64,000 nt of DNA from Pseudomonas fluorescens. GTDB lineage: Bacteria; Pseudomonadota; Gammaproteobacteria; Pseudomonadales; Pseudomonadaceae. The stretch covers positions 1,798,001 to 1,862,000 of the forward strand of contig NZ_CP015225.1 of assembly GCF_001623525.1 (NCBI RefSeq), given 5' to 3'. Positions 27,497 through 43,652 of the stretch are shown here, in pieces. Made by a program: the position numbers and the translations under genes. The notes under the pieces are model-generated. The model did not search any database, had not been told where the DNA came from, and saw only the letters and a program-made list of their open reading frames with translations. Positions within the stretch are counted from its first letter, which is position 1. Every line of letters begins with the position of its first letter.

Positions 27497-27738
27497 ACGG
27501 GCCGGGCAAGCCGCTAATTCGGGTCACCTGAAACGCGAGTGGCGCCCCAAATCAAATCGCCATCAGATAGCCTTGCAAAAACACCCGGGCCGTCTAGATT
27601 CAAATCTGTCTCCAACCACATCGTCAACCACACCTGACAGCCCTTCGGGCGAGAGCGTCTATTGGCCTAAAACACACACTTGGCGTTGCTTTCAATTACT
27701 GACACGGAATCAGTCAATAACAACAAGAGGGATGCTTG
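27497..27738 (+). promoter_or_regulatory. Upstream region of the ebo-type cluster
   Basis: A 242-base gap before the first ebo gene. It is AT-richer from about 27680 and holds a small dyad ACTGA-7-TCAGT (27698-27714) about 25 bases before the ATG. A good SD (GAGGG) precedes the ATG at 27739. The promoter of the long operon should be here. Confidence 0.45.
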
Positions 27739-29613
27739 ATGAAGCATGGCCGTGGGTATCGTTTGCTCTCGCAAAAAGGCGCAGCCGGACATTTCTGGCT
27801 GTCGCTGGTTTGCTTTTCCGCCCTGGTGATCGCCAGCTTCTTGCTGTTCGAACAACAGATCCAAGACTTCCTGACCCATCTCGAGCTGTACCAGCCCTCG
27901 ACGCCCGCGCAGAAACTCTACCTCGCGTTGCTGCTGATCGCCCTGCTGGCGCTGGACGTGGTGCTGCCGGTGCCGTCGAGCATGGTTGCGCTGCTGGCCG
28001 TGGCCATGCTCGGCAGCGTGGGGGGTTACCTGGCGATTTTCGTGGGGCTGTGCCTGGGCGCCGGGTTGGGTTATGCCCTGGGCGCCGGCTATTTGCGTTT
28101 GTTGTCCGGCCGCCTGGGCCTGCATCAGCGCCAGCCGGGGCAACTGGCGTACCGGTTGGGCACACTGTCGTTGATCTGCCTGCGCGGGGTCCCGGTATTG
28201 GCGGAAACTTCAGTCGTCGCCGCCGGTATGCAAGGCTACCCTCTGCGCGCTTTCATCCTGGTCACCACCCTGGCCAACGCCGGCCTCGCGCTGGCCTACA
28301 GCGCCATAGGCAGCTTTCTCGTCGAGCAGAACGCGCTGTTGGTGACCTTGCTCGCCAGCATGGTATTGCCCGGGCTGTTCATCGCCGGGTACAGCCTGTT
28401 CAAGAGCCTTCGCCGCAGCGAAGCGGAGCAACCGTTGCACGGGCGCTTCAAGGTCAGCTACGACTACCCGGTGGTGTTCACCGACCATGTATTCGATCCG
28501 CTCAATCCCTGCCTGCACCGCCAGCTCATGGCCGGCCACAGGGGCCCGGTCACGGTGTTGATATTCGCCGATGAACAACTGCTGCACAGCGCCCCGCACC
28601 TGCAGGAACAGATCAACGCCTACTTCGCCAGCCACTTTCCAGACCTGCACCTGCAGGCGCCGCCGATTGCGGTCCCGGCCGGCGAGTCGAGCAAGGATTC
28701 ACAGGTGTTGCAGCGGCTGTACACCGACATGCTGAAACATGGCTTGGACCGGCATTGCCATGTGCTGGCCCTCGGTGGCGGCGCGGTGCTGGATGCGGTG
28801 GGCTACGCCTGCGCCACCTTCCACCGTGGCATTCGCCTGATTCGCATCCCCAGCACCGTGCTCGCCCAGAACGACGCCGGCATCGGTGTGAAAAACGGCA
28901 TCAACGCCTTCGGCCAGAAGAACCTGCTGGGCGCCTTCTATCCCGCCACCGCAGTCATCAACGACTTTCAATTGCTGACCAGCCTGACCCGGCGCGACCA
29001 GATCGCAGGCCTGGCCGAGGCGGTCAAGGTGGCGCTGATCAAGGACCCGGCGTTTTTCCAGTGGATGGAGCAACAGGCCGACGCCCTCGCCCACTTCGAA
29101 CATGGGGCCAGCCGCTATGCGATCCGCCGCTGCGCCGAATTGCACCTGGCGCACATCACCGGTGCCGGCGACCCCTTCGAACGCGGTAACGGACGGCCCT
29201 TGGACTACGGACATTGGGCCGCTCACAAACTGGAAAATCTCAGTCAGCACCGACTGCGCCATGGTGAAGCCGTCGCGGTGGGCATGGCCCTGGATGGGCT
29301 TTATGCCAATGCCTTGGGGTTGTTGAGCGACGGCGACACCGAACGGGTGCTGAACCTGCTGCTCAAGCTCGGCTTCTGTCTGAACCCGCCAGAACTGACC
29401 TTGAAAGATGCACTGGGGCGCTCGCAGGTCTTGCTGGGATTGGAGGAGTTCCGCCAGCATTTGGGCGGGCAACTCTCCATCCCCATGTTGAGCCGGATCG
29501 GCGAGTCGGTGGACTTGCATGAAATCGATACCGCGCGAATGGAGCAGGCATTGCAGCGGCTGTCCACCCAGGTCGAGCTTGCGCCGATCCTGAACGAGCG
29601 CTGTGCGCAATGA
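27739..29613 (+). CDS. eboD: EboD-like: VTT membrane domain fused to sugar phosphate cyclase
   Basis: 624 aa from the ATG at 27739. Residues about 15-225 are a VTT/DedA-type membrane domain with six hydrophobic segments. Residues about 235-624 are a 3-dehydroquinate-synthase-like sugar phosphate cyclase. The zinc ligands of that family are kept: E427 in GLAEAVK, H492 in DYGHWAAH and H508 in LRHGEAV, with the 16-residue H-H spacing of DHQS. The nucleotide-binding part has GGGAVLDAVGY. The usual SVGGKTG is replaced by AGIGVKNG, so it is likely not a normal shikimate enzyme. First gene of the cluster; the stop overlaps the UbiA start. Confidence 0.88.
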   Translation: MKHGRGYRLLSQKGAAGHFWLSLVCFSALVIASFLLFEQQIQDFLTHLELYQPSTPAQKLYLALLLIALLALDVVLPVPSSMVALLAVAMLGSVGGYLAIFVGLCLGAGLGYALGAGYLRLLSGRLGLHQRQPGQLAYRLGTLSLICLRGVPVLAETSVVAAGMQGYPLRAFILVTTLANAGLALAYSAIGSFLVEQNALLVTLLASMVLPGLFIAGYSLFKSLRRSEAEQPLHGRFKVSYDYPVVFTDHVFDPLNPCLHRQLMAGHRGPVTVLIFADEQLLHSAPHLQEQINAYFASHFPDLHLQAPPIAVPAGESSKDSQVLQRLYTDMLKHGLDRHCHVLALGGGAVLDAVGYACATFHRGIRLIRIPSTVLAQNDAGIGVKNGINAFGQKNLLGAFYPATAVINDFQLLTSLTRRDQIAGLAEAVKVALIKDPAFFQWMEQQADALAHFEHGASRYAIRRCAELHLAHITGAGDPFERGNGRPLDYGHWAAHKLENLSQHRLRHGEAVAVGMALDGLYANALGLLSDGDTERVLNLLLKLGFCLNPPELTLKDALGRSQVLLGLEEFRQHLGGQLSIPMLSRIGESVDLHEIDTARMEQALQRLSTQVELAPILNERCAQ

Positions 29614-30500
29614 ACCAGACGGCGCCGAACCTCAAGACCTGGCTGACCCTCGGCCGTGTCTCCAACCTGCCCACGGTGTGGACCAACACCTTGGCCGCCG
29701 CCCTGCTCGCCAGCAGCGCCGGGGCCCTGGCACCGCCGTCTTCCCTGGTGTGGATCCTGCTGCTGGTGGCACTGTCGCTGCTGTACCTCGCCGGCATGCT
29801 GTTGAACGACCTGTTGGACGCCGACTGGGACCAACAACACCACAACCCCCGCCCCATAACCCTGGGCCTGGTGAGCCGCCAGCACGTGCGGCTGGCCACT
29901 GCGTTGTTGCTGGTGCTGGCTGCCGCCTCGCTGCTGGGCCTGAGCCAGTTGATCGAGCAGCCGCACTGGCTGCTGGGCAGCGCCACCCTGTTGGTGGGCT
30001 GCATTCTCGGTTACAACCTGCTGCACAAGAAATACGCCCACAGCGTCTGGCTGATGGGGGCCTGCCGCTCCGCGCTCTACCTCACCGCGGCGGCCAGCCT
30101 GGCGATGCCGGCGGGACCGATCTGGCTCTGCGCCATTTTGCTCGGTGTCTACATCAGCGGCCTGACCTACCTGGCTCGCCAGGAACACCGCAACCAACTG
30201 ATCAGCCGCCTCCCCCTGCTCTTGATGCTGAGCCCACTGGCCTTGGCGATCTATGCAGGCAGCACCTGGTTTTGGCCGGTGCTGCTGTTATGGCTTGGCT
30301 GGTTGGGCTGGCATTACTGGCACAACCTGGCCAACCCTCGGCAACGACAGGTCCGCGCCTTTATCGGCGCTGGCCTGGCAGCCCTGCCGCTGTTCGATGC
30401 CCTGGTGCTGGCCGTGGCTAACCAGCCCTTGGGCAGCCTGTTATGTGTCGCGGTGTTTTTCCTGCTTCCCCATTTCCAGCGCTGGATCAAACCAACATGA
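29610..30500 (+). CDS. eboC: EboC-like UbiA-family prenyltransferase
   Basis: 296 aa, very hydrophobic, eight to nine membrane segments. The first Mg/diphosphate motif of UbiA enzymes is present, N66-D67-x2-D70-x3-D74 (LLNDLLDADWD). The second Asp-rich motif is weak, so the acceptor is unclear. It is linked by ATGA overlap to the cyclase and to EboA. In the ebo cluster this protein is thought to prenylate or move a metabolite at the inner membrane. Confidence 0.9.
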   Translation: MNQTAPNLKTWLTLGRVSNLPTVWTNTLAAALLASSAGALAPPSSLVWILLLVALSLLYLAGMLLNDLLDADWDQQHHNPRPITLGLVSRQHVRLATALLLVLAAASLLGLSQLIEQPHWLLGSATLLVGCILGYNLLHKKYAHSVWLMGACRSALYLTAAASLAMPAGPIWLCAILLGVYISGLTYLARQEHRNQLISRLPLLLMLSPLALAIYAGSTWFWPVLLLWLGWLGWHYWHNLANPRQRQVRAFIGAGLAALPLFDALVLAVANQPLGSLLCVAVFFLLPHFQRWIKPT

Positions 30501-31270
30501 ACACGGACGTTACTGCAGCGGCATCGGCGGCCCTCGACATGCGCCACGATTGCCTGAACGAACAACGCCAGCCCTTCATCCGCCATCTCGATGAAAGCGA
30601 ACGGCGATGGTGGCATCAGGCAGAGGAACAGCTTGCCCTAAGCCCGGACGCCAACACCGCGGCGCTCATGAGCAGCCAATGCAAGCGCAACCTCAAGGAG
30701 CGTGCGCAACCCGGCAGCGATGGCTGGAGCAACGTCCAGCTGGCGCGGGCGTTGCTGCTGGCCCAGGTGCTGGAACAGCAGCCCGCCGCCCGGCAAGTCC
30801 CCCTGCTGCACCAATTATTCCTGTGGGGCGACGACCAGGAAAAGGTCGCCACCTTGAAAACCCTCGATTGGCTCGATAGTCGCGGAGCGTGCGTGGAGCT
30901 TGCACGCCAGGCCGGACGCACCAGCAACAGCCAGGTGTTCGCCGCCCTCGCCCTGGACACCGCCTACCCATCGCGTCACTACAACGAACAGGCCTTCAAC
31001 CAATTGGTGTTGAAAGCGCTGGGCATGGGCCTCGACGTACGACGCCTGATCGGCCTGGCGCAACGACAAAGCGTCACCCTCAACCAGTTGGCCCTCGACC
31101 TGCTGGACGAACAACTCGCCGCCGAACGAACGGTGTCCGCCGGACTGCCCCACGTCATTGCCTTCGACCTGCTGAGCCCGGCGCAACGTCAGCGCCTGGC
31201 CGGCCTGGGCCAGCAACAACGCTTACCGGCGCAATGGCACGAGCACCTGGGCGGCGTTTCGCCGAACTGA
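30497..31270 (+). CDS. eboA: EboA-like protein
   Basis: 257 aa from the ATG at 30497, which overlaps the UbiA stop (ATGA); upstream codons of the open frame lie inside the UbiA gene. A soluble helical protein with no known catalytic motif. The position in the cluster and the segment QVFAALALDTAYPSRHYNEQ match EboA family members (EboA domain-containing protein). Function unknown. 39 bases separate it from the next gene. Confidence 0.85.
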   Translation: MNTDVTAAASAALDMRHDCLNEQRQPFIRHLDESERRWWHQAEEQLALSPDANTAALMSSQCKRNLKERAQPGSDGWSNVQLARALLLAQVLEQQPAARQVPLLHQLFLWGDDQEKVATLKTLDWLDSRGACVELARQAGRTSNSQVFAALALDTAYPSRHYNEQAFNQLVLKALGMGLDVRRLIGLAQRQSVTLNQLALDLLDEQLAAERTVSAGLPHVIAFDLLSPAQRQRLAGLGQQQRLPAQWHEHLGGVSPN

Positions 31271-31309
31271 TGCCCCACCTCCCCCCGCTTTTTTTGACGA
31301 GGATTCACC

Positions 31310-32194
31310 ATGCTCAAGTACTTTGACCCGCATATCCACATGGTCAGCCGCACCACCGACGATTACCAGAACATGGCGGCCGCCGGCATCACCGGGGTAA
31401 TCGAGCCGGCCTTCTGGCAGGGCCAGGCCAGGACCAGCGTCGGCAGCTTCATCGACTACTTCGACACACTGTTGGGCTGGGAGCGTTTTCGCGCCAGCAT
31501 GTTTGGCATCCATCACTTCTGCACCATTGGCCTGAATCCCAAGGAGGCCAATGACCTGTCGGTGGCCAATGAGGTGCTGGAGATTCTGCCGCGCTACCTG
31601 GTGAAAGACGGCGTGGTGGCGGTGGGTGAAATCGGCTACGACGACATTACCCCGGAAGAAGATCGCTTCCTCGCCGCGCAATTGGAGCTGGCCAAGCAAT
31701 TCAATCTGCCGGTGCTGGTGCACACCCCGCACCGCGACAAGATAGGTGGCACCAAACGCACGCTCGCCGTCATTCGCGAGGTCGGCATTGCCGAACATCT
31801 GGTGATCATTGACCACCTCAACGAACTGACCCTGCCCCTGGTGCTGGACAGCGACTGCTGGCGCGGCCACTCCATCTACCCCAACACCAAGATGTCGGAA
31901 CAACGCATGGTCGCGCTGCTGCAGCAGTACGGCACGGAGAAAATGGTGGTCAACAGCGCCGCCGACTGGGGCATCAGCGACCCGCTCAAGGTGCCCAAGA
32001 CCGGCCAGGCAATGTTGGCCGCAGGCTTCAGTGAAGCCCAGGTCGAACAAGTGCTGTTCCACAACCCGGTGGACTTTTTTGCCCAGAGCGGCCAGTTGGA
32101 CAAAGCCCTGGTCAGCACGCCCCTGCCCATCGATCAGCGGCGACAATGGCAGGACAACTCCGCCCTGCGGGGCCAGGAACCGGTGATCAAATGA
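31310..32194 (+). CDS. eboB: EboB-like TatD-family metal-dependent hydrolase
   Basis: 294 aa. TIM-barrel metallohydrolase: metal motif FDPHIHM at the N-terminus (HxH), E in AVGEIGYDD, H in LVHTPHRDK, H in IIDHLN and a C-terminal Asp region NSAADWG. This is the TatD/PHP-like set. No signal peptide. In the ebo cluster it is the EboB hydrolase. The stop overlaps the next gene by ATGA. Confidence 0.92.
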   Translation: MLKYFDPHIHMVSRTTDDYQNMAAAGITGVIEPAFWQGQARTSVGSFIDYFDTLLGWERFRASMFGIHHFCTIGLNPKEANDLSVANEVLEILPRYLVKDGVVAVGEIGYDDITPEEDRFLAAQLELAKQFNLPVLVHTPHRDKIGGTKRTLAVIREVGIAEHLVIIDHLNELTLPLVLDSDCWRGHSIYPNTKMSEQRMVALLQQYGTEKMVVNSAADWGISDPLKVPKTGQAMLAAGFSEAQVEQVLFHNPVDFFAQSGQLDKALVSTPLPIDQRRQWQDNSALRGQEPVIK

Positions 32195-33420
32195 GCGCCC
32201 GCACGGGTTGGACGGCCATGCAGATCGGCTATTGCAGCAACGTGCACCCGACCCATGACCTGGGCGGGCTACGCGCTTGCGTCGAACGGCATTTCCAGAC
32301 CGTACGCACACTGCGCGGGCTCGACACGCAGGACAGTGGATTGTGGATCAGCGCCCTCGCCGCCGCCGAACTCCAACACGCGCCGACCCGTGCGGATTTC
32401 CTCGACCTGCTGCAACGCAGCGGGCTACGCCTGACCTCGCTCAATGGGTTTCCCTACGGCCAATTTCACCAAGGCGCAGTGAAAGCCGACGTCTACCTGC
32501 CCAACTGGGCCGATCCGCAGCGGCTGGCGTACAGCCTGGACCTGGCTCGACTTCTCGCCCAGGCCCTGCCAGCGGACTGTGCCCAGGGGGTGATCTCCAG
32601 TCTGCCGCTGGGTTATGCCGCCCACTGGAGCCCGACGGTACAGCAACGTGCCGAGCAGCAACTGCGCGAGCTCACTGCCGGGCTGGCCCGGCTGCAACGG
32701 GAGACGGGCAAGAAGATCGTGGTCTGCCTGGAGATGGAGCCCGATTGTGTGCTGGAAAACACCGACCAGGCCATCGCCTTCTTCCACCACTGGCAAGCCA
32801 CGGACCCGCACCATGAACACCTGGCGCTGTGCTTTGACGTTTGCCACCAGGCCGTGATGTTCGAAGACTGCTATCAATCACTGGACCGATTGCGTCGGGC
32901 CCGGGTCCCCATCGGCAAGATCCAGTTATCCAATGCACTGATTTGTCGCCTGCCTGAGGACGAGCACCGGCGCGAACAGGTGCTCAAGACATTGAGCGGT
33001 TTTGCCGAGCCCACCTACCTGCATCAAGTGAAGGCCCGCGATGGACACGATCGGTTATCGGCCTGGGCCGACCTCCCCGCGGCCCTGGACGATTGTGAGC
33101 AGAACCGCGTCTCTCATCCCGAGCTGAGGATTCACTTCCACATTCCGCTGTTCAGCGAGCAGTTGCTGCTGCCCGAACTCAGCAGCAGCCAGCTTGCCCT
33201 GTCGCAGACTTTCGATTTTTTGGCCGACCATGGGGATTTTCGCCCCGTACTGGAAGTGGAAACCTACAGCTGGGGCGTCCTGCCTAGCCAATTGCGGCCT
33301 ACGACCGAGCATGCCCAACTCCAGGGCATCGCGGCGGAGTTGCATTGGGTCGAGGATCAATTGCAACAGCGCCGCTTGCTAGAACCTCAGGCACTGGAGG
33401 CCCACGCCCATGCGCTCTGA
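32191..33420 (+). CDS. eboE: EboE-like TIM-barrel (xylose isomerase-like) protein
   Basis: 409 aa from the ATG at 32191 (overlap ATGA with the TatD gene; another ATG is nine codons further on). A metabolite traP-independent TIM barrel of the AP-endonuclease-2/xylose-isomerase type; acidic residues of the usual metal site are in VCLEMEPDC, LCFDVCHQAV and HFHIPLF. EboE family members are annotated this way, and the reaction is unknown. The end overlaps the next gene by 11 bases. Confidence 0.88.
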   Translation: MSARTGWTAMQIGYCSNVHPTHDLGGLRACVERHFQTVRTLRGLDTQDSGLWISALAAAELQHAPTRADFLDLLQRSGLRLTSLNGFPYGQFHQGAVKADVYLPNWADPQRLAYSLDLARLLAQALPADCAQGVISSLPLGYAAHWSPTVQQRAEQQLRELTAGLARLQRETGKKIVVCLEMEPDCVLENTDQAIAFFHHWQATDPHHEHLALCFDVCHQAVMFEDCYQSLDRLRRARVPIGKIQLSNALICRLPEDEHRREQVLKTLSGFAEPTYLHQVKARDGHDRLSAWADLPAALDDCEQNRVSHPELRIHFHIPLFSEQLLLPELSSSQLALSQTFDFLADHGDFRPVLEVETYSWGVLPSQLRPTTEHAQLQGIAAELHWVEDQLQQRRLLEPQALEAHAHAL

Positions 33421-34855
33421 TCCTGCGCGCCAGCCGCTGCTGCTGATCAACGTGGTCGGCCTGACGCCCGCGCTGTTGGGTGCCGCGACGCCCTGCATCA
33501 ATGCCCTGTTGAAAACGGCCAAGATGGCCACGCTGCAGCCAGTGTTCCCGGCGGTCACCTCGACCGTGCAGGCCTCGATCCTCACCGGACAACCACCGTC
33601 GGAACACGGCATCGTCGGCAACGGCTGGTATTTTCGCGATCAGGCCGAAGTACGTTTCTGGCTGCAACCCAATGCACTGATCCAGGGGGAAAAGGTCTGG
33701 CAGACACTCAAGCGCCAGTACCCCGGGTTTCGCTGCAGCCAATTGTTCTGGTGGTACAACATGTATGCCGACGTGGACGCCGCCATTACCCCTCGGCCCC
33801 ACTACCCGGCCGATGGTCGCAAGCTGTTCGGCCTGTATTCGGCGCCGGCCTCGTTGCATGAGCGTATCGAACAGCAGATCGGCGAGTTTCCCTTTCCGAG
33901 TTTCTGGGGACCGGCGGCCGGCATCGCGTCGAGCCGCTGGATCGTCGACTGCGCCATCGCCGAATTCCAGATCAACCGCCCCGACCTGCAATTGATCTAC
34001 CTGCCCCACCTCGACTACAGCCTGCAACGCCTGGGGCCCGATCACCCGTCGATTGCCGACGAGGTAAGGGCCATCGACGGTGAAGTCGGGCGTCTGCTGG
34101 ACTTTGCCCAAGCACAAGGCGCGGCAGTGATGCTGCTGTCCGAATACGGGATCGAAGCCGTCACCCAATCCGTTTCCATCAACCGGTTGTTACGTGCCGA
34201 GGGCTTGTTGCAGGTCCGCCAATCGCTGACCTGGGAGTTGCTCGACCCCGGTGCCAGTGCAGCGTTTGCGGTGGCCGATCATCAGGTCGCGCACATCTAC
34301 GTGAAGCAGGCGTGCGACATCCCCCGCGTCAAGGCGCTGTTGCAACGCCAGGCCGGCATCGAGCAGGTGCTGGATAAAACCGAACAACGGGCCTGGCAAC
34401 TGGATCATCCCCGCAGCGGCGAACTGGTGGCCGTGGCCGCGCCCGGTTACTGGTTCGATTATTACTACTGGTTCGACGAGCGCCAGGCCCCCGACTTTGC
34501 CCGCACCGTGGACATCCATCGCAAGCCAGGCTATGACCCGCTCGAGCTGTTCATCGACCCGGCCATTCGCTTCCCGAAATTGAAAGTGGCGCGCCGCCTG
34601 CTCCAGAAAAAGCTCGGCTTTCGCTACTACATGGACCTGATTCCGCTGGACACCCGCCTGGTCCGCGGTAGCCACGGACGGCTGCCCACGAGCGAGAAGA
34701 CCGGCCCGCTGCTCATCACCAATTGTGATCTGTCGTTGCCGCAGCACCTTGCGGCGACGGCGGTGAAGCAACTGCTCCTGGAACACTTCCGGGGGCACCC
34801 TCATGCCGATACGGCGAATGCCAAGGAGCTTCCATGCGGCGAGCCATTTCCATAA
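33410..34855 (+). CDS. eboF: EboF-like alkaline phosphatase/nucleotide pyrophosphatase family protein
   Basis: 481 aa. Nucleotide-pyrophosphatase/phosphodiesterase fold: nucleophile region PVFPAVTSTVQASILTG (probable T50) followed by PPSEHGIVGNGW, then the metal Asp/His sites in LIYLPHLDYSLQ and LLSEYGIEAV. No signal peptide, so cytosolic. It ends the ebo core and overlaps the next gene by 22 bases, so the accessory block is translated from the same mRNA. Confidence 0.9.
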   Translation: MRSDPARQPLLLINVVGLTPALLGAATPCINALLKTAKMATLQPVFPAVTSTVQASILTGQPPSEHGIVGNGWYFRDQAEVRFWLQPNALIQGEKVWQTLKRQYPGFRCSQLFWWYNMYADVDAAITPRPHYPADGRKLFGLYSAPASLHERIEQQIGEFPFPSFWGPAAGIASSRWIVDCAIAEFQINRPDLQLIYLPHLDYSLQRLGPDHPSIADEVRAIDGEVGRLLDFAQAQGAAVMLLSEYGIEAVTQSVSINRLLRAEGLLQVRQSLTWELLDPGASAAFAVADHQVAHIYVKQACDIPRVKALLQRQAGIEQVLDKTEQRAWQLDHPRSGELVAVAAPGYWFDYYYWFDERQAPDFARTVDIHRKPGYDPLELFIDPAIRFPKLKVARRLLQKKLGFRYYMDLIPLDTRLVRGSHGRLPTSEKTGPLLITNCDLSLPQHLAATAVKQLLLEHFRGHPHADTANAKELPCGEPFP

Positions 34856-35976
34856 CCGTTCTCAGTGCCCTGGCCGGTTTGGCCCAGGCACAGGACACCA
34901 ACAACTTCGATTGCAGTAACTTCCTGCAATTTGGAGCAGACATCAACCAGACTCGGACCGCGTTTGCCCAGAGTCCCGAGACCATGGCCTGGAACTGGTT
35001 CGTCTGCTTGAACCAACCCAGTACCGCGCAAAGCAGCAATCTCGTGTGGGAGACGATGAAGCCCTCGGACCAGGTCTACCTGCCCAACGGCGCTCCACCG
35101 GGCACCTATGACAGCTCCGCGCCGCTCCCGGCCGCGGTGGTGACGCAAGCCAAGGCACAAGGTATGGACTTGTCCCGGTCCTTCCATAACATCAATGCCA
35201 CCCAACAGGTCGATGGCCTGATCCTGCAAATGGGTGGTGCCGTGCCCGATGCCCAACAAGGCCACCCCGTACGCTTTCAGTTGCTGATGGGCAAGGACAC
35301 GTTCGATTACATCGTGAATAAGCAGGTCTACAACATGAATGGCCAGGCCGCCCTGGCCAACGACCTGAACTTCCCCCCCACCGCCTGGGAGTTGAAAGCC
35401 GCGTGGCTGTGGATCGGCACAGACACGACCTACCGACAAACCCTGGTGAACGACGGCTACTACATTGCCCAGGCCTATTACCAGCAGGACGACGGTACTT
35501 ACCAGGTCGGCTATGTGGCATTGAGCGGTCTGCATGTCGTCAACAAACTGAACGCCAACTGGGTCTGGACCACCTTCGAAAACATCAACAACAGTAAATA
35601 CACCGTCACCAATGCCGCCCCGCCTGCGCCGATGACCAATACCACGGGGCCGACTCCGGCCGCCAAGCCGGTGAATGCCAGCTTCCAGGCCAATAACCGG
35701 AACCTGTCGAAGTACGAGTTGATCGGGGTCGAGTTCCAACCCATCACCCAGGTACTGGCCAACTCACAACTGGAATCGGCGTTCCAGAACACCTCGTCCT
35801 GCCTGGCCTGCCACGGCACCGCCGCCTATTCGAACGACAAAGGCTACTTCAATTTCGCTCTGAACCACGGGGGCGGCATCGTCTACCCCACCACCCCGCT
35901 GCCGCCCTCGGCATTCGATGGCTACAAAAAACTGGACTTTGTCTGGTCGCTGAAACGCGCCCAGTGGCAACGCTAA
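34834..35976 (+). CDS. Exported protein with one CxxCH heme motif (accessory copy 1)
   Basis: 380 aa. Sec signal peptide with probable cleavage after AQA (residue 20). A single heme-binding motif C323-L-A-C326-H327 lies near the C-terminus. The central part (about 120-270) has FDYIVNKQVYN and YVALSGLHVVNKLNANWVWTTFE. It is paralogous to the protein at 39448-40752, sharing the WVWTTFE/WIWSTFE segment and the C-terminal heme site. AAGGAG precedes the ATG. It is not a normal cytochrome c by length; a periplasmic redox partner is likely. Family without a name known to me. Confidence 0.82.
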   Translation: MRRAISITVLSALAGLAQAQDTNNFDCSNFLQFGADINQTRTAFAQSPETMAWNWFVCLNQPSTAQSSNLVWETMKPSDQVYLPNGAPPGTYDSSAPLPAAVVTQAKAQGMDLSRSFHNINATQQVDGLILQMGGAVPDAQQGHPVRFQLLMGKDTFDYIVNKQVYNMNGQAALANDLNFPPTAWELKAAWLWIGTDTTYRQTLVNDGYYIAQAYYQQDDGTYQVGYVALSGLHVVNKLNANWVWTTFENINNSKYTVTNAAPPAPMTNTTGPTPAAKPVNASFQANNRNLSKYELIGVEFQPITQVLANSQLESAFQNTSSCLACHGTAAYSNDKGYFNFALNHGGGIVYPTTPLPPSAFDGYKKLDFVWSLKRAQWQR

Positions 35977-35986
35977 GGAGCATGAC

Positions 35987-38371
35987 ATGAGCGTATTGAA
36001 TTTCCCCCGTATCTACCTCAACGGCCATATGTTCTGGAACCCGCCAACGGCCAACAACAACGACGTGTATCCGCTGTATGACGCGGTAAACGCGGACATC
36101 AACTGGCCGTTCATGAGCCACTTCGACATCAACGTCAAGAACGCCCCCACCCTACTGATGCCCTGGGCCATCAAGCCCCTGACAATGGCGGAGCTGCCGC
36201 CCTATATGCTGCAGGTACCGACCAATGCCAACCCGAAAACCTACCCATACATGCCCGCCGAATGGGATCTGTTTGGCGACAATGCCTGCGGCACGGTGAG
36301 CTACAAAGGGACGCGCTCAACGATCATTGGCGGCGAGCTGCAGGCCGACACCTACATCACCGCGGATGCGCTGGTTGGCAGGGACTACCAATTGCTCGGC
36401 AATCCCTTTGGCAGCAACGCTCCGACTGCCGCGCGCTTCGTGGACGTCAGCCCGTGGCAGAACACCTTCACCGCGTTGTATTTCGACAAGCTGATGCTGG
36501 GGGATGCCACGTGTGGCCTGACCCTCAATCGCCAGTATCGGATGATGGATCGCTTCCTCAATTTCAATTGGGGCGCCTTCGGTGGCCTGGTGTATGTCAC
36601 CACCACCTGGCAGACCTGCTTTCCCCAGGAGAACCTGGAATGGGTCATCGGCGATTCGGCGCTGCTGAGTAACCTGCAGCAGCAGATGAAGCTGCAAGGG
36701 GCAAAGGGCCTGATGTTCAGGTTCTCCACCTACCTGACCTGCTACGACAGGAACGGTGTTTTCAACGACTTCCCGTACGTCAACACCCGTTCCAATGCCC
36801 CCTCGGATACGGCTCGTCTGCAAGCAATGTATCAGAAGGGCCTGGACAACGTTTCCGGTATTTTCTTCAACCCCGCCTACAGCCGCACCGCCGCGACCCT
36901 GGGCCTCTGGTTCGCCGACGAATACCCGACCGCGCCCGCCGGCCTGCGCCTGGTGCCCGCGCAGGCCGTATCTGTTGTTCAACCCAGTGGAACTCCCCAA
37001 AACGCCACACTGGGCGTGACTTCGGTGCAGATTACCGGCAACACCCTGTCGCTGGATCTGGCCAACACGTTCCCGTTCTATCCGGTAGAGCCCAATGCCC
37101 CCATCCTGACCGCCGAAAAATTCCAGGCCGGCGACTATCAACTGGGTGTACGCGAGGGTGATCAATTCACGCCGGTCGTGGACTTCGGTTTCGACCGATA
37201 TAACCAGGCAGCCTTCGACAAACGCTCCGGCCTGCAAGACTTCCCGCTCAGCGACGCGGACCTGACGAAACTACAACCAGGTCATCCATTGGAGCTGCGA
37301 CTCAAGGCTACGGCCGCCCCGACACCCGTGATCGCCGCCACCCAGCAAACCTGGACCGCCGAAGTGGTGGAGAGCGGCAGTTTCATTGACGTGGGTGACC
37401 ATAAGACACTGACCATCATGGTGCAGAAAAATGGTCAGCCGGCGGCCAATACCACGCTGTGGGTGGCGGAATATGGCAACCCCTACATGGTGACCACCAG
37501 CGACTACTACCTGGCCTCCAGCAACGCGGCCAATTTCACGCTGTTCTTCGACCACCCAGACGACCCCAACCTGAACAAGGCCAATCTGCCGAACTTCAAT
37601 AATGCGCCGCCCGTACAAAACTATCTGGCCAAAGGCAGCGGCCGCCGACTGACCGCGCTGCAGAATACGGATCAGTCCAGTGGAAACCCGATTGGTTATC
37701 AGCAATTCCTGCAGGGCGACGGCAAACCGGTCACGATCGACTTGCACCCTTGCCTGGCATTCGATGCCGGCGTCTACGCCACCGGAACCCTGAGCGACGA
37801 CGTCCACGCCACTGCGGTGGATTACTCTTATGTCACCACTACCACCGACGCCAACGGCATCGCCCAGGTGAGCTTCAGGGCTATCGCCCCCGGCTTCCCG
37901 ACCTTGCGTTTTTTCGTCAAGGATGGCGACAGCGATCCGGTCATCCCCTTCAGCTTCCCGCTGCCCCAAGCCTACATCGACTTCCTCGCCCCGCTCCGCG
38001 TCCTGCCCTTGGACGTGCAACTGCAACAGGACTTCATCAACTACTGGAACACCGTCTACAAGGATCAGAACGCCGCAACGCAGCTGTGGGAGGGTTTCCT
38101 CTACCCACGCATCCTGCAGACCTTCTATTACCTGTACCCCATCATGAACAAGTACATGCCGCTCAACTCCCAGGCGCGCGTCGAAGGCGCCATCGACCAG
38201 TTGATTGTGCTGATCAGCAAGCCCTACCAGGAAGAAAGCACGCTCGCGATGCCCATCACCCGTGACATGTCCCAGAGCCGCCGTGCGGTATTGGAGCTGT
38301 GGGCCCAGAAACTGGTGAAGCGCAACTATCCGCCACAACAACTCAAGATGAGCGATTACGACAACCTCTGA
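35987..38371 (+). CDS. Large protein of unknown function (794 aa), accessory copy 1
   Basis: 794 aa, no signal peptide or membrane segment. The N-terminus MSVLNFPRIYLNG and the C-terminus (PLNSQARVEGAID..., TRDMSQSRRAVLELW) match the 602-aa protein at 40756 (MSILNGPRLNFWG; PLNQPDAVMGAKN..., VRSMSPCQRALLRAY), so the two are paralogues of different length. The middle is beta-rich, with Ig-like-looking segments around residues 440-660. It lies 10 bases after the heme protein gene. I do not recognise a characterised family. It may act in the cytosol or leave the cell by another route. Confidence 0.75.
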   Translation: MSVLNFPRIYLNGHMFWNPPTANNNDVYPLYDAVNADINWPFMSHFDINVKNAPTLLMPWAIKPLTMAELPPYMLQVPTNANPKTYPYMPAEWDLFGDNACGTVSYKGTRSTIIGGELQADTYITADALVGRDYQLLGNPFGSNAPTAARFVDVSPWQNTFTALYFDKLMLGDATCGLTLNRQYRMMDRFLNFNWGAFGGLVYVTTTWQTCFPQENLEWVIGDSALLSNLQQQMKLQGAKGLMFRFSTYLTCYDRNGVFNDFPYVNTRSNAPSDTARLQAMYQKGLDNVSGIFFNPAYSRTAATLGLWFADEYPTAPAGLRLVPAQAVSVVQPSGTPQNATLGVTSVQITGNTLSLDLANTFPFYPVEPNAPILTAEKFQAGDYQLGVREGDQFTPVVDFGFDRYNQAAFDKRSGLQDFPLSDADLTKLQPGHPLELRLKATAAPTPVIAATQQTWTAEVVESGSFIDVGDHKTLTIMVQKNGQPAANTTLWVAEYGNPYMVTTSDYYLASSNAANFTLFFDHPDDPNLNKANLPNFNNAPPVQNYLAKGSGRRLTALQNTDQSSGNPIGYQQFLQGDGKPVTIDLHPCLAFDAGVYATGTLSDDVHATAVDYSYVTTTTDANGIAQVSFRAIAPGFPTLRFFVKDGDSDPVIPFSFPLPQAYIDFLAPLRVLPLDVQLQQDFINYWNTVYKDQNAATQLWEGFLYPRILQTFYYLYPIMNKYMPLNSQARVEGAIDQLIVLISKPYQEESTLAMPITRDMSQSRRAVLELWAQKLVKRNYPPQQLKMSDYDNL

Positions 38372-38376
38372 GCTTG

Positions 38377-38465
38377 TGTGGGAGCCGAGCTTGCTCGCGA
38401 TGAAGGCACCTCGGTCTTTCGAATGACCGCGTTATCGTTCATTGCGGGCAAGCTTTGCTCCCACA
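38377..38465. repeat. REPIN inside the ebo accessory operon
   Basis: TGTGGGAGCCGAGCTTGCTCGCGATGAA on the left and the inverted copy TTGCGGGCAAGCTTTGCTCCCACA on the right, about 33 bases apart. It sits in the 136-base gap after the 794-aa gene, and could reduce downstream transcript levels. Confidence 0.8.
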
Positions 38466-38507
38466 GGCTCCCACAGTGTCACCCGGTACTTTTCAAAGGA
38501 ATGACCT

Positions 38508-39428
38508 ATGAAAACCAGTATCTTGACCCGCCTATTGCTGTTGATCCTGCTGTTCAGCCCACCACTGTTCGCCCAGGACAGCGGTGCCGTCTACTTCACC
38601 ATGGGCGTGCATAACACCGAAGGGTGCAACGAACAGAACGGCAACTGCATCGCCACGCGTGTCCCGGGCGAGCCTTCCGATCCGTTTTTCCCGGCGTTCT
38701 GGATCAGCGACTGGACCATGTACCGGGTGATGCACAACTATGAAAAAAACCCGCCGCCCTACAGCAATCCCCCTTCCACCCTGACCCCGGCGGACTACAC
38801 CGTCTCTCGCGGGACCAGCTATTACGACACGGCCTATATTCCGGCCGATGGCGACGGTTTCGGGGCGATGATGGAACACTATGAGAAGTACTGCCTGCCG
38901 ATCTTCCCGATCAAGAACAACAACTACACCTGCTCCTTCGTGTCCCTGGGCAACAAGGCATACTTCCTGACCTACCCGCAGGATCGCCCCAAGGACATGC
39001 CGGCCTGCTGCATGTTCTCGCCGATGAATCATCCGCCGCGGCAAGACTTCATCCAGCACCTGCCCTACAGCGCCGAGCGCAGCAAGAACCTGGACGGTAG
39101 CGTGCAAGCCTACGCGCTGGACCTTCAATCGCCGCAGGGTCCGATCCTGTTCGGTTATGCCTTCTACAAAAAGATGTCGGGGCAACCACCCTACCGGCAG
39201 CCTCAATCATTCTTTTTCTCCGGTGACACCAGTGTCGCCAATGCCCCCATCGTCAGCCAGAACTACACCAACTTCCGCATCGCCAAACCGGACCCTGCCC
39301 AGACCTGGGCGCAGGTGGCTGCGATGTGCCCGGCGAATCCACCGCCCTGCCAGTTGTTCGAGCCACCGGCTTCACAGAGCAACGGGCAAAAGGCGCAGTG
39401 GAACAAGCTCATGCAGCGCAAACCCTGA
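38508..39428 (+). CDS. Exported protein of unknown function (306 aa)
   Basis: 306 aa with a clear signal peptide (MKTS, Leu-rich core, cleavage after LFAQ near residue 23). The mature part has nine or so cysteines, including a CC pair in PACCMF, and many aromatic residues, compatible with disulfides in the periplasm. I recognise no domain. It lies between the two heme-protein/large-protein pairs, 20 bases before the next gene, with AAAGGA before its ATG. Confidence 0.75.
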   Translation: MKTSILTRLLLLILLFSPPLFAQDSGAVYFTMGVHNTEGCNEQNGNCIATRVPGEPSDPFFPAFWISDWTMYRVMHNYEKNPPPYSNPPSTLTPADYTVSRGTSYYDTAYIPADGDGFGAMMEHYEKYCLPIFPIKNNNYTCSFVSLGNKAYFLTYPQDRPKDMPACCMFSPMNHPPRQDFIQHLPYSAERSKNLDGSVQAYALDLQSPQGPILFGYAFYKKMSGQPPYRQPQSFFFSGDTSVANAPIVSQNYTNFRIAKPDPAQTWAQVAAMCPANPPPCQLFEPPASQSNGQKAQWNKLMQRKP

Positions 39429-39447
39429 CCAATGACGAAGGATCGCC

Positions 39448-40752
39448 ATGAACACTTCACTCCGTTTCACCCTGGTACTACTGGGTCTGGCCAGTCTTCC
39501 GGCCCTGGCCCTGGAACAATCCCAGGAACAAGCCATGCCACGGACGCAGGCCTCGAACCTGAATTGCCAGCCCCCCAGCACGGCGCCAGCGGCCAACGCC
39601 AGCCAGGACCTGTTCGATCAATACAGCTGGCAGTTGTTCATTGCCGTGAACTGGCCCGCCCAGGCGGGGCAGCGCGGTGATCCCGACTGCAGCAAACAAC
39701 CGGGAGACCCTGGCTACACCGTCTGGCAGACCTACAAGACCGTGGAAGAAACCTTCCTGCCACGGGGGGCCGATCCAGGCCCCTGGAACTCCCCGCAGCT
39801 TGCCAAGAGCCTGGGCATCATCAACATCGCCGCGCTGAAGAACAGCTCCCAGGTGAATGCCGTCGACCAGGCCGTCGGCGGCTGGCTGATCGACCAGGCC
39901 GGCAACCCGACCTACTACGACATCTCGGCCAACGAGACCTCCTACAACTACATCGTCGCCAACCAGTTCTATAACGCCGATGTGGTTTCCAAAGCCAACA
40001 ACATCAACTTTCCCTATGGGGTCATCGAGGTCAAATCGAGCTGGCGCATCCTCACCCCCCATGACAATGCCAGCCGCTACCTGACCATGCTTGCGCGCGT
40101 GGCCACGTTCGACGACCAAGGCCAGCGCACCGGCGTCACCGAGGCCTACCTGGGCCTGGTGGGGCTGCACGTCATCACCAAGGTGAACGGCTATCCGCAG
40201 TGGATCTGGTCGACCTTCGAGCAGATCGACAACGTTCCACCCAAAACCCTGGTGAACGGTGTATGGGTCGACCAGCCGGCCTCCGGCACGGCCTATTCCT
40301 ACTTCAACCCCAGCGCCCCGGCAGCCACGCTCAACCAGTCGCCCTGCGACTGGCAGACCCAGGGCGCGCACCTGGTCTGCGTGCCCAAGCCTGGCACCAC
40401 CTTCCAGACCCCGAACCCGTTGAACCGGTACACCCCGATCGCCGAGATCACCAACGAGGTCAATGCCCGTTACCGCAGCGACCCGGACCTGCAACGCAGC
40501 GTGCTGAAGTACTACCAACTCATCACCACCCAGCGCCCGCTGATGCCGGACAACCCCAGTAATCCACTGGGCCAGCCGACCCCCGCCCTTTCGGCCAACG
40601 TGACCATGGAAAGCTACATCCAGCCCAACAGCAGCTGCATGAATTGCCACTCCATGGCGACTCCGGTCAAGAGCCCCTACAAATCCGACTACTCCTACCT
40701 GTTCAAATTCGCCAATTCGCCTGTCGGCAAAACCATCAAGGACGAGGAATAA
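39448..40752 (+). CDS. Exported protein with one CxxCH heme motif (accessory copy 2)
   Basis: 434 aa. Signal peptide with cleavage after ALA near residue 20. One heme-type motif, C397-M-N-C400-H401, near the end. It is paralogous to the protein at 34834, with matching blocks FDQYSWQLFIAVNW/AWNWFVCLN, YNYIVANQFYN/FDYIVNKQVYN and LGLVGLHVITKVNG/ALSGLHVVNKLN. It is followed after 3 bases by its large partner gene. Likely periplasmic c-type redox protein. Confidence 0.82.
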   Translation: MNTSLRFTLVLLGLASLPALALEQSQEQAMPRTQASNLNCQPPSTAPAANASQDLFDQYSWQLFIAVNWPAQAGQRGDPDCSKQPGDPGYTVWQTYKTVEETFLPRGADPGPWNSPQLAKSLGIINIAALKNSSQVNAVDQAVGGWLIDQAGNPTYYDISANETSYNYIVANQFYNADVVSKANNINFPYGVIEVKSSWRILTPHDNASRYLTMLARVATFDDQGQRTGVTEAYLGLVGLHVITKVNGYPQWIWSTFEQIDNVPPKTLVNGVWVDQPASGTAYSYFNPSAPAATLNQSPCDWQTQGAHLVCVPKPGTTFQTPNPLNRYTPIAEITNEVNARYRSDPDLQRSVLKYYQLITTQRPLMPDNPSNPLGQPTPALSANVTMESYIQPNSSCMNCHSMATPVKSPYKSDYSYLFKFANSPVGKTIKDEE

Positions 40753-40755
40753 ATC

Positions 40756-42564
40756 ATGAGCATCCTGAACGGACCACGTCTGAATTTCTGGGGCGGCATC
40801 CGCACGGACGTCAGCCTGCCGAACAACTCCCCGACCATTCCCTACGGTGGCAACGACGACTGGCCGCTCTTCGACCTGACCACTTCGACCCTGGCACCGA
40901 GCGCCGAGTCCTACACCGACGACCAGTTGAACAACATGATCAATGCCCCCACCGGCAACTACTACACCGCCGGGGGCTGGAATCACTATGGGCAGCATGT
41001 CGTCGACATGCAGAACGCCCTGATCAGCTCCCAGGGCATCCCCGGCAGCATCAACACCACCGGCGACCTGGTGGGCCAGCCCGTCTACCTGCTCGGTTCG
41101 GTGGACCCGGTGACCGGCCAGGGGCCCGTTTCCGGACCGATGATGGTGGACCTGGACCCCACCTCCTCGACGACCACCCAAATCTTCGTCGGCGGCCTGC
41201 AAATCGGTGGCAACGACAACATCCAATTGCTGATCCGCAGCAACACCGTGTGCAGCAGTTTCGACGTGGCGGGACGTGTGCTGCTGCCGGCGAAAATGGA
41301 TGCGCCGGGCTCTTTCCACGCCAGCGGCACGTTTCAACTGACCTTCCCCTTGAGCAGCATTGTCAGTTGGAACCAGAACAGCAGCGGCCTGCGCTCGATC
41401 ATCCAGGCACCGGGGGCGACGGGCATCGTCCTGCGTTTCGTCATGTTCGAAATGTGCCCCACGATGACCACCGAACAACTGGACGCCGACTATGCCGCCG
41501 GCCGGTACACGCCCAACCCGAGCATCGGCAGGGTCATCGGCACACTGGCCCCGGCCTTCGCCGACGAGCCGCTGAACTGCCAGCCGGGCCGGCAACTGGT
41601 CAACCAGAGTACCGGCAATGCCGGCTATGCCGACCTGGACAACACCGGTTACCTGAGCATCGACATGGTGAACGTCATTCCGAAGGAAACCTTCCGGGCC
41701 GTCAGGGACGATATCACCAGCCCGATCGGCCCCAACGCCAATTACGGGACCGTGACCATCAGCGCCGGCTCCACCACCCTGACGACCCTGGAGCCGACCA
41801 GCCGCTTTTTATTCGATTACTACGTGTATGGCGGCATCGTCGACCTGCCCCTGACCGCCGACCAGCTACAGGCAGTACGGACCTCTGCCTTGGCGATCAA
41901 CGCACCGGGCAAGGTCGCCGGCACCACATTGCAGGCCACCGAGTCGACCTATCGGATCTATGCCGACCAGCGCAACGTCTACCTGGAGGACTACCCCAAC
42001 GGCCTGTCGATCACCCTTCAGGTCAGGTACCTGGGCGGGGCGGTGCCCAGCACCACCGAAATCGGTCTGCAGGCGGCGGCCCCCGCGGTCTATGATCAAC
42101 CGCAATACTGGGACTTCCTCGACTTCCCTGATTCGTTGACCGTCGACAGTGGCCAGCTTTCCGTCAGTTTCCCGGTCACCCTCAAGCCGGGCAGCGCCGC
42201 CCAAGCCGGTTTCGTCGCCCTGACCTGCACGGCCAATGGCCTCGACAGCAGTGCCTACTTCACCAACTTTCGCAAATACGCCCAGACCGACTTCGGCATT
42301 CCCCAGGGCACCACCATCACCTGGCCGCTCATGTACCCCAACGTGCTGCGCTTTCACTACCTGGCGTTCCCCGCCATGTCGCGCTATATCCCGCTGAATC
42401 AGCCCGACGCCGTCATGGGCGCCAAGAACCCCATCCTCGCCCGCACCTCGGACGCCTACAAAGGCACCACGCTGTTCATGCCCGTGGTGCGCTCGATGTC
42501 GCCCTGCCAACGGGCGTTGCTGCGGGCCTATCTCACCGGTGAACCGTGGCAGCCGCCGCAATGA
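40756..42564 (+). CDS. Large protein of unknown function (602 aa), accessory copy 2
   Basis: 602 aa, no signal peptide. Shares the N-terminal MSxLNxPR motif and the C-terminal block with the 794-aa protein at 35987, but lacks about 190 residues of the middle. Rich in Thr/Ser/Gly and beta-strand-like. The start is 4 bases after the heme protein stop, so translation is coupled. Function unknown. Confidence 0.75.
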   Translation: MSILNGPRLNFWGGIRTDVSLPNNSPTIPYGGNDDWPLFDLTTSTLAPSAESYTDDQLNNMINAPTGNYYTAGGWNHYGQHVVDMQNALISSQGIPGSINTTGDLVGQPVYLLGSVDPVTGQGPVSGPMMVDLDPTSSTTTQIFVGGLQIGGNDNIQLLIRSNTVCSSFDVAGRVLLPAKMDAPGSFHASGTFQLTFPLSSIVSWNQNSSGLRSIIQAPGATGIVLRFVMFEMCPTMTTEQLDADYAAGRYTPNPSIGRVIGTLAPAFADEPLNCQPGRQLVNQSTGNAGYADLDNTGYLSIDMVNVIPKETFRAVRDDITSPIGPNANYGTVTISAGSTTLTTLEPTSRFLFDYYVYGGIVDLPLTADQLQAVRTSALAINAPGKVAGTTLQATESTYRIYADQRNVYLEDYPNGLSITLQVRYLGGAVPSTTEIGLQAAAPAVYDQPQYWDFLDFPDSLTVDSGQLSVSFPVTLKPGSAAQAGFVALTCTANGLDSSAYFTNFRKYAQTDFGIPQGTTITWPLMYPNVLRFHYLAFPAMSRYIPLNQPDAVMGAKNPILARTSDAYKGTTLFMPVVRSMSPCQRALLRAYLTGEPWQPPQ

Positions 42565-42596
42565 CCGTATCCCCTGCTCATTCACGGAGAAAGCCT

Positions 42597-43652
42597 ATGC
42601 CCGTTCCCCTTCAGATCCCCGCGCACCCCGGGGAAAACCTGCGCCCCAGCACCCTGGTCGCCGAGGACCTGCTGAACCCTCGCGGCCTCTGCCTGCAAGC
42701 CGATGGCAGCCTGCTGCTGACCGAAGCAGGCTCGGGGTTGCCCGACCAAACCTTCAGCGGCCGTATCAGTCGACTGCGACCGGATCCGCAGCGGCCCGGC
42801 ACCTACCTGCCCCGCGAAACATTGGCGCAAGGCTTTCGCGCCATGAACATGCAGGCGCGCATGCTGCGTGATGAAATCATGGGGGTGTCGGACATCGCCT
42901 GCGGTGACGGACGCTGCCTGGTCAGCCAGACGGATTATGTCGCCGGTTCCAAACTGCTGGACCTGCAATTCACACCGCCCGAGCCGGTGTTCCATAGCCG
43001 TGGCAACCTCAATGCGCTGTGCTACCACCCGACCCGCCGCAGTTGGCTGGCCGTCAAGCCTGATACCAATCAGTTGGTGGAGTTCGTCACCGGCCAGGAA
43101 GAGCGCGTGTTGGCCCAGCTGCCCGAACTGGATCAAGGCCAGGAAGCCGTTCCCGTGACCCTGGTGTACGAACCGGCGACAGACGCCGTGCTGATCAGCC
43201 TGTTCTCGGGCGAACTGCACGGCGACCCGAGCCGTAAGGGCATCGACTTTGCCGAGAAGGCCGGCCAGGTGATCCGGGTCTGGCCGGACAGCGCCAGGAT
43301 CGACATCCTGATTCGCGGCTTGCAACTGCCCACCGGGCTGGCGCTGCGCTCCAACGGCCAACTGCTGGTGCTGGAACTCTGCGAGCGCCTGCAACAACCG
43401 CTGCTTCCCGACTGGAACGGCGACCCCCTGCATGGCGGCTTTACCCGGTTCAGTGGGCGGCTGCTGAGCTGCGACTTGCAAACCGCCCAGGTCACGGTGC
43501 TCGCCCGCGACCTGGACACCCCTTCCAACCTGTGCCTGTTACCGGACGCGGTACTGGTCAGCGAAGGCATGGGGCTGCTCGGGCGGCCACTGCCTACGCC
43601 AGATAGAAGCGTGGTGCCGTTAAACGGCAGGCTTCGTCGGGTGCAACTCTGA
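42597..43652 (+). CDS. SMP-30/NHL-type beta-propeller protein
   Basis: 351 aa from the ATG at 42597 with GGAG upstream; the open frame reaches 42546 inside the previous gene. No signal peptide. Repeated propeller blades are seen in NPRGLCLQADGSLLLTEAG, SRLRPD, ALCYHPTRRSWLAVKP, LPTGLALRSNGQLLVLE and TPSNLCLLPDAVLVSEG. It may be a lactonase or sugar-binding protein; the metal ligands cannot be assigned. Last gene of the long ebo-type operon. Confidence 0.8.
   Translation: MPVPLQIPAHPGENLRPSTLVAEDLLNPRGLCLQADGSLLLTEAGSGLPDQTFSGRISRLRPDPQRPGTYLPRETLAQGFRAMNMQARMLRDEIMGVSDIACGDGRCLVSQTDYVAGSKLLDLQFTPPEPVFHSRGNLNALCYHPTRRSWLAVKPDTNQLVEFVTGQEERVLAQLPELDQGQEAVPVTLVYEPATDAVLISLFSGELHGDPSRKGIDFAEKAGQVIRVWPDSARIDILIRGLQLPTGLALRSNGQLLVLELCERLQQPLLPDWNGDPLHGGFTRFSGRLLSCDLQTAQVTVLARDLDTPSNLCLLPDAVLVSEGMGLLGRPLPTPDRSVVPLNGRLRRVQL

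Follow-up and report, generated by a model that had tools for sequence, protein, structure and literature searches.

What does an ebo cluster make and export when its core runs directly into six further genes, and what do those genes contribute? The question is raised by a stretch of 64,000 nucleotides from Pseudomonas fluorescens (contig NZ_CP015225.1, positions 1,798,001 to 1,862,000; hereafter the window), which lies within a complete chromosome of 6.92 Mb and carries, at 27739-43652, twelve close-packed open reading frames, all on the + strand, in the order eboD, eboC, eboA, eboB, eboE, eboF, cyt1, vio1, cys, cyt2, vio2 and a beta-propeller gene. The first six (27739-34855) are the ebo core and the other six are referred to here as the accessory genes. 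We put at about even the chance that the locus is a biosynthesis-and-export cluster of the kind called EDB ("edible") in P. fluorescens NZI7, which would make a tryptophan-derived (indole-type), cell-associated deterrent by the putative steps set out below. What is new is the pairing of stand-alone VioB N-terminal halves with exported P460-like proteins, the fusion of EboD to a VTT membrane domain, and the presence of a split VioB beside ebo genes in other bacteria. The ebo genes occur in several phyla; the cluster described here is a concrete lead on how such a product may be made and moved.

Stand-alone relatives of the VioB N-terminal half and their candidate exported partners

An earlier note on this DNA, made from the sequence alone, had left the two large proteins unnamed. 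Both vio1 (35987-38371) and its paralogue vio2 (40756-42564; BLASTP E 1e-11) match the NCBIfam VioB model TIGR04492 over their first 150-180 residues (1.7e-9 over profile positions 1-163 for vio1, 8e-6 for vio2), with scores of 36.1 and 23.9 bits, respectively, that lie far under the 1250-bit cut-off. In hhalign, the vio profile aligns with a VioB-like protein of Nocardiopsis at 95% (E 3e-8, 263 columns), and in that protein it falls in four pieces within residues 1-632, with a ferritin-like profile within residues 657-1025. It also aligns at 99.8% (E 2e-30, 550 columns) with eight sequences of a sister family (587-675 aa), called VioB-N-like here, from Mycetohabitans, Azospirillum, Gloeothece and Aureibacter. 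A further vio relative, on a Gloeothece plasmid record, is related along most of its length and its C-terminal end matches VioB positions 482-583 (E 2e-16). Hence, the profile alignments argue that vio1 and vio2 are homologous to VioB along its N-terminal half and correspond to that half as separate proteins. Unlike VioB and the chromopyrrolic acid synthases, they have no C-terminal ferritin-like half (PF12902), which is absent from vio1 and vio2 as well as from the whole source genome. VioB is described as a heme b protein that couples (dimerises) two indole-pyruvate imines, and in 2021 a review still listed no structure for it (PMC9705886); the split form offers separable pieces of the enzyme.

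No His or Cys is invariant over 57 aligned vio sequences. The structure model of vio1 has a predicted local distance difference test (pLDDT) value of 84.1, and its Foldseek search gave six matches at E<=0.001 (integrins and similar proteins), with template-modelling (TM) scores of at most 0.13 over the query among the 50 rows listed; with VIA it has the common sandwich only, and the absence of a fold match for vio1 carries no information. A sequence search of the PDB with vio1 returned no useful match.

The candidate partners are cyt1 (34834-35976) and its paralogue cyt2 (39448-40752; BLASTP E 3e-21), each with one CxxCH motif, which is invariant in 45/45 cyt sequences. Lys76 and Lys188 are invariant in the 45 as well, and either would be a candidate for a Lys-heme contact of the P460 kind. 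The predicted model of cyt1 appears to resemble the cytochrome c'-beta/P460 fold, and like those proteins cyt1 has a single CxxCH near the C-terminus; it differs in showing no detectable sequence similarity and in being more than twice as long. The CxxCH would be the site of a putative covalent heme. An ordinary cytochrome c fold was considered and rejected, as no Pfam cytochrome model passes, and matches to PDB sequences (OmcS and an alcohol dehydrogenase subunit) are weak and lie around the CxxCH only. Since both cyt and vio are paralogous pairs, the accessory genes comprise one two-gene module present twice, with cys (38508-39428), which encodes a Cys-rich protein, between the copies.

Signal-peptide-like N-termini were found for cyt1 in 17/17 sequences, cyt2 in 12/12 and cys in 12/12, and for vio1 in 0/17, vio2 in 0/12 and the propeller in 1/17; the criterion, based on hydrophobicity, is a crude one and is positive for EboF too (17/17). 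The cyt and cys proteins thus look exported, in agreement with the two exported CxxCH proteins and the exported Cys-rich protein of the earlier note, and vio1, vio2 and the propeller look cytosolic. Its suggestion of a periplasmic oxidation or maturation step therefore holds for the former group, but not for the large proteins and the propeller.

Each protein search scored 8000 candidates, with 120 of 193, 180 and 694 matches listed; among the 120 of 193 listed for cyt1, the named homologues at 96% identity are from Pseudomonas. Over 398 Pseudomonadota genomes the cyt family is present in 18, EboE in 3, vio in 2 and cys in 4 (one of the four cys matches being weak and partial), and in one of the three EboE-bearing genomes, G332, the cyt gene lies about 674 kb from EboE. 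On the source chromosome itself, at about 4668767-4672870, another cyt-family gene is followed by genes for a 202-aa protein and a GMC oxidoreductase, an arrangement suggestive of a flavin dehydrogenase working with a heme-type protein; by BLAST grouping only, the cyt gene of G332 has both neighbours as well and that of G495 lies near one. The same chromosome also encodes an 837-aa protein (L068:9051-11564) that combines a weakly BNR-like part with a cyt-family part bearing CxxCH.

Such neighbourhoods bear on a different reading, which we consider unlikely, in which the cyt-vio pairs form a periplasmic electron-transfer or dehydrogenase module acting on another substrate and the likeness to VioB reflects a shared domain, not the chemistry. 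The GMC oxidoreductase beside a cyt relative in this genome, and in or near the corresponding places of G332 and G495, speaks for it, as do the missing ferritin-like half, the lack of invariant His or Cys in vio and the lack of a convincing full-length fold match for vio1. Against this, vio occurs only together with EboE: EboE is present in 17/149 Pseudomonas genomes and vio in the identical 17 and in 0/132 of the others (genomes of one genus not being independent, here or in the gene-order counts below), and the two vio-bearing genomes of the 398 Pseudomonadota both have EboE (2/2). Moreover, EDB products are reported as indoles.

Linkage to the ebo core in Pseudomonas and beyond

Comparison of 20 kb around each of the 16 other Pseudomonas clusters shows the same gene order throughout, with eboF followed by cyt1 and vio1 and the propeller last (16/16). 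In the window eboF and cyt1 overlap by 22 bases (34834-34855), and the two also overlap in 16/16 other clusters, by 22 bases in 12 and 31 in 4, lengths that depend on our choice of start. The cys-cyt2-vio2 cassette precedes the propeller in 11/16 and is absent from 5/16; in the trees, four of the clusters without it make up a single clade, and the sister of the remaining one is a cassette-bearing cluster, so that more than one loss or gain of the cassette is probable. Outside the leader and the propeller, flanking DNA matches only among close relatives, which suggests that the whole cluster moves together. A tree of eboC-B-E-F and one of cyt1-vio1-propeller have 7/14 splits in common; their terminal groups mostly agree and some deeper groups conflict with support, which points to some exchange within the cluster or to fast accessory genes misleading the tree, vio1 and cyt1 being fast-evolving over the 17 clusters. 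A single operon-like unit is thus supported, with an accessory linkage that is constant in the 17 Pseudomonas clusters seen. To this extent the earlier note was right: its core gene order and 22-base overlap are borne out by the reading frames and family scores, the core does continue into the accessory genes, and these, far from being rare neighbours of ebo in Pseudomonas, adjoin it in every cluster.

One could also suppose that the accessory genes merely hitchhike on a horizontally moving ebo cluster, which we regard as very doubtful. The different sites of the cluster in different lineages, the cassette missing from 5/16 and the fast evolution of vio1 and cyt1 would suit it, but cyt1, vio1 and the propeller are kept in all 17 clusters despite divergent sequence, the eboF and cyt1 reading frames overlap, and ebo genes lie beside VioB-N relatives in three other lineages.

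Outside Pseudomonas the picture is different. We examined 80 ebo loci, the best 80 of 533 relatives of a Gilvimarinus-led query, a sample that covers other phyla thinly and in which 42/80 have more than 3 kb on both sides and 38/80 at most 3 kb on at least one. With our own profiles, 0/80 of them carry a cyt, vio, cys, VioB-N-like or PF12902-like gene, which leads us to reject the accessory block, CxxCH, large and Cys-rich genes included, as a general extension of ebo across phyla. A related propeller is present in 3/80; in Steroidobacter, Povalibacter and a deltaproteobacterial metagenome-assembled genome (L105, L106, L107) such a propeller lies between eboB and eboD. Propeller relatives in the plasmid records: none.

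It is on plasmids that the VioB halves meet ebo again. A VioB-N-like gene is present in eight plasmid records, and the neighbourhoods of seven were examined. In 7/7 the next gene is annotated as ferritin-like; PF12902 passed in five of these neighbours, the sixth matches our own profile and the seventh stands by annotation. Four of the seven neighbourhoods also contain ebo genes: Aureibacter (Bacteroidota) and two Mycetohabitans records have the complete set of six, and Gloeothece has eboD and eboB along with cys and a cyt-vio pair. The three Azospirillum neighbourhoods have no ebo genes, EboE being found on one of the plasmids more than 300 kb away. In the eighth record (Mycetohabitans) the coordinates put the VioB-N-like gene no more than about 7 kb from cys and EboE. 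That a split VioB is met repeatedly next to ebo is the strongest reason to regard the pairing in Pseudomonas as functional. Against this weigh the plasmid counts, since EboE is present in 47 plasmid records and at most 5/47 can have a VioB-N-like gene (eight in all) nearby. The link between ebo and VioB halves in four lineages suggests the class of molecule that ebo may move.

Two side observations concern Mycetohabitans. Between eboD and eboE of one record (L185:13802-13987), cys is represented only by a short stretch with weak similarity (E 1e-6); it is apparently a remnant, judging by the full-length cys gene at this place in a sister record. Genes annotated as a LodA/GoxA-type CTQ (cysteine tryptophylquinone) oxidase and a tryptophan 7-halogenase (L175:1-1592) lie beside the ebo/split-VioB cluster; a VioB-type enzyme could naturally be paired with an amino-acid oxidase.

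A broader proposal, which we offer tentatively and hold to be rather less likely than the EDB-type explanation of the locus itself, is that on several occasions an ebo core became associated with a split VioB, made of an N-terminal half and an interchangeable metal-redox partner, i.e. the PF12902 protein in Mycetohabitans, Gloeothece and Aureibacter and the exported P460-like protein in Pseudomonas and in the second pair of Gloeothece. Together with the EboD-VTT fusion of Pseudomonas, such a combination would amount to a separate design by which aromatic (indole-type) products of oxidative coupling are made and then carried across the membrane on an ebo lipid carrier with a flippase of its own.

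The EboD fusion, the EDB system and a proposed route

EboD (27739-29613) joins an N-terminal VTT domain of the DedA/TMEM64/UptA type (PF09335, 4.1e-10; 40.6 bits, over the cut-off of 33.9) to a sugar-phosphate cyclase of the 3-dehydroquinate synthase family (PF01761, 2e-35; NF004852, 625.9 bits, cut-off 333). The fusion is present in 16/17 Pseudomonas clusters (the window and 15/16 others) and in 0/80 ebo loci outside the genus, 69/80 of which have an EboD-type match, as seen with a VTT profile derived from the EboD proteins of Pseudomonas, which could overlook remote VTT domains. Among the matches listed, a Ramlibacter protein and two others combine a VTT domain of the same type with a cys-family part; in genome G300, VTT lies just upstream of cys, which a VioB-N-like gene adjoins, and within the family of G300 cys is found in 1/69 genomes, G300 itself. 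VTT proteins include undecaprenyl-phosphate flippases (UptA). EboD has the domain in common with UptA, DedA and TMEM64 and differs from them in its fusion to a cyclase, the UptA model itself matching only at E 0.016. The fusion suggests that the VTT domain may act as a flippase for the lipid carrier proposed for ebo in mBio 2018, where a capsule ABC permease was considered as a possible transporter (PMC6282210), and it makes such a role testable. A UbiA homologue of ebo clusters preferentially farnesylates quinoline acids (PMC9235831).

The cys family itself (of 8000 candidates scored, 694 are homologues at E<=1e-3) has members elsewhere that adjoin a VioB-N-like gene, an ebo gene or a VTT domain, and cys of the window is 54, 50 and 49% identical to relatives in Gloeothece, Mycetohabitans and Azospirillum, respectively.

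Matched by its published description, the cluster is very probably the EDB locus: that of NZI7 comprises a full ebo cluster plus further open reading frames, some with signal peptides (mBio 2018, PMC6282210), and the same combination is found here. Hence, the claim that the extension was previously undescribed is doubtful and at most partly right; in the portion of that description available to us (PMC6282210) there is no mention of features of the VioB-N, P460-like or VTT kind. A literature search for a link between VioB, ebo and Pseudomonas found two papers, both on violacein taxonomy. Nor is it still the case that the product in Pseudomonas is not known, since EDB in E. coli yields isoindoles, indole-3-aldehyde and an indolyl-oxoacetamide, of which the latter two were tested and showed moderate repellence of C. 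elegans (review, PMC9655573). With its parts named, the nematode-repellence phenotype of EDB becomes a gene-by-gene question.

The scytonemin operon of Nostoc punctiforme offers a second comparison, having in common with this locus the ebo core, a propeller of the ScyD/ScyE type and a tryptophan-derived aromatic product; cyt or vio genes are not mentioned in the part of its description available to us. There, a monomer is exported by ebo and presumably oxidised by ScyE once in the periplasm (PMC6282210). ScyE is reported to have a Sec signal peptide, whereas the propeller here (42597-43652, the start being our choice) is apparently not exported and stays below the ScyD/ScyE family cut-off (NF033206, 58.2 bits, cut-off 80), as it does for the strictosidine-synthase model (PF03088, 23 bits, cut-off 25).

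Regulation is suggested by the leader ahead of eboD (27549-27738, + strand), of which about 190 bases align across the nine clusters aligned. It contains CTGACACGGAATCAG, a first GGA site whose GGA is kept in 16/17 leaders, and, just before the ATG and overlapping the ribosome site and the start, CAAGAGGGATGCTTG, whose GGA is kept in 17/17; we take both to resemble Rsm/CsrA sites. Folding of the leaders gave no consistent minimum-energy hairpins, and the stems show little variation and are disrupted in some leaders; as folding lends no support, it is the GGA motifs and where they lie that underpin the Rsm reading. Such a leader fits the GacS control reported for EDB of NZI7 (PMC4406715).

In the route that we propose, EboD (cyclitol) and EboC (prenyl transfer) would build a lipid carrier, and the VTT domain would flip either this carrier itself or a monomer bound to it across the inner membrane. 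In the cytosol vio1 and vio2 would bind or couple an indole-derived substrate, and in the periplasm the exported P460-like cyt1 and cyt2 would oxidise that substrate or accept its electrons, with the cys protein and the propeller as accessory factors and the Gac/Rsm-type leader gating translation. On this reading, the cluster would combine a tryptophan-derived oxidative assembly with ebo export, probably under Gac/Rsm control. The EDB-type explanation is preferred because EboE and vio occur in identical genomes and gene order is kept where flanks differ, and because of the relationship to VioB, the split VioB beside ebo elsewhere, the VTT-EboD and VTT-cys fusions and the heme-type proteins. 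A structural role seems to us quite improbable, in which vio1 and vio2 would be beta-sandwich scaffolds that keep a product of low diffusibility at the cell and the cyt and cys proteins would serve in envelope maintenance.

Core genes, gene calls and neighbouring features

Membership of the ebo family follows from EboE (32191-33420), a TIM barrel protein above its curated cut-off (NF035939, 413.9 bits, cut-off 250), and from the adjacent genes for the other five components. EboC (29610-30500) passes the UbiA-type prenyltransferase model (PF01040, 1.4e-12) although the EboC-specific NF035940 stays at 83 bits, under its cut-off of 250. EboA (NF035938, 140.8 bits, cut-off 50) was placed at 30497-31270, with a 4-base overlap with eboC as in 14/16 relatives, its family scores being computed on the translation from the in-frame 30485. 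EboF (33410-34855) is a type I phosphodiesterase/nucleotide pyrophosphatase (PF01663, 8.3e-62). EboB (31310-32194), a TatD-like metal hydrolase (PF01026, 3.9e-12), is the most conserved protein of the cluster, with a median amino acid identity of 93.5% over the 17 clusters, where the other genes kept in all 17 show 61-86%; as the third positions of eboB are at 72%, this indicates strong constraint on the protein.

Promoter and terminator scans found nothing above chance (0 vs 3.3 and 14 vs 14.9 expected, respectively), and a gap of 136 bases, in which a boundary may lie, separates vio1 from cys. An AraC-type regulator lies directly upstream (window 26681-27496); it is found at that position, at 90% identity or more, in only 2/16 other clusters, those of the closest relatives, and is therefore probably not part of the unit. 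Downstream, at 45752-49927 of the window, an open reading frame of 1391 aa with three near-identical long repeat blocks resembles a large secreted adhesin.

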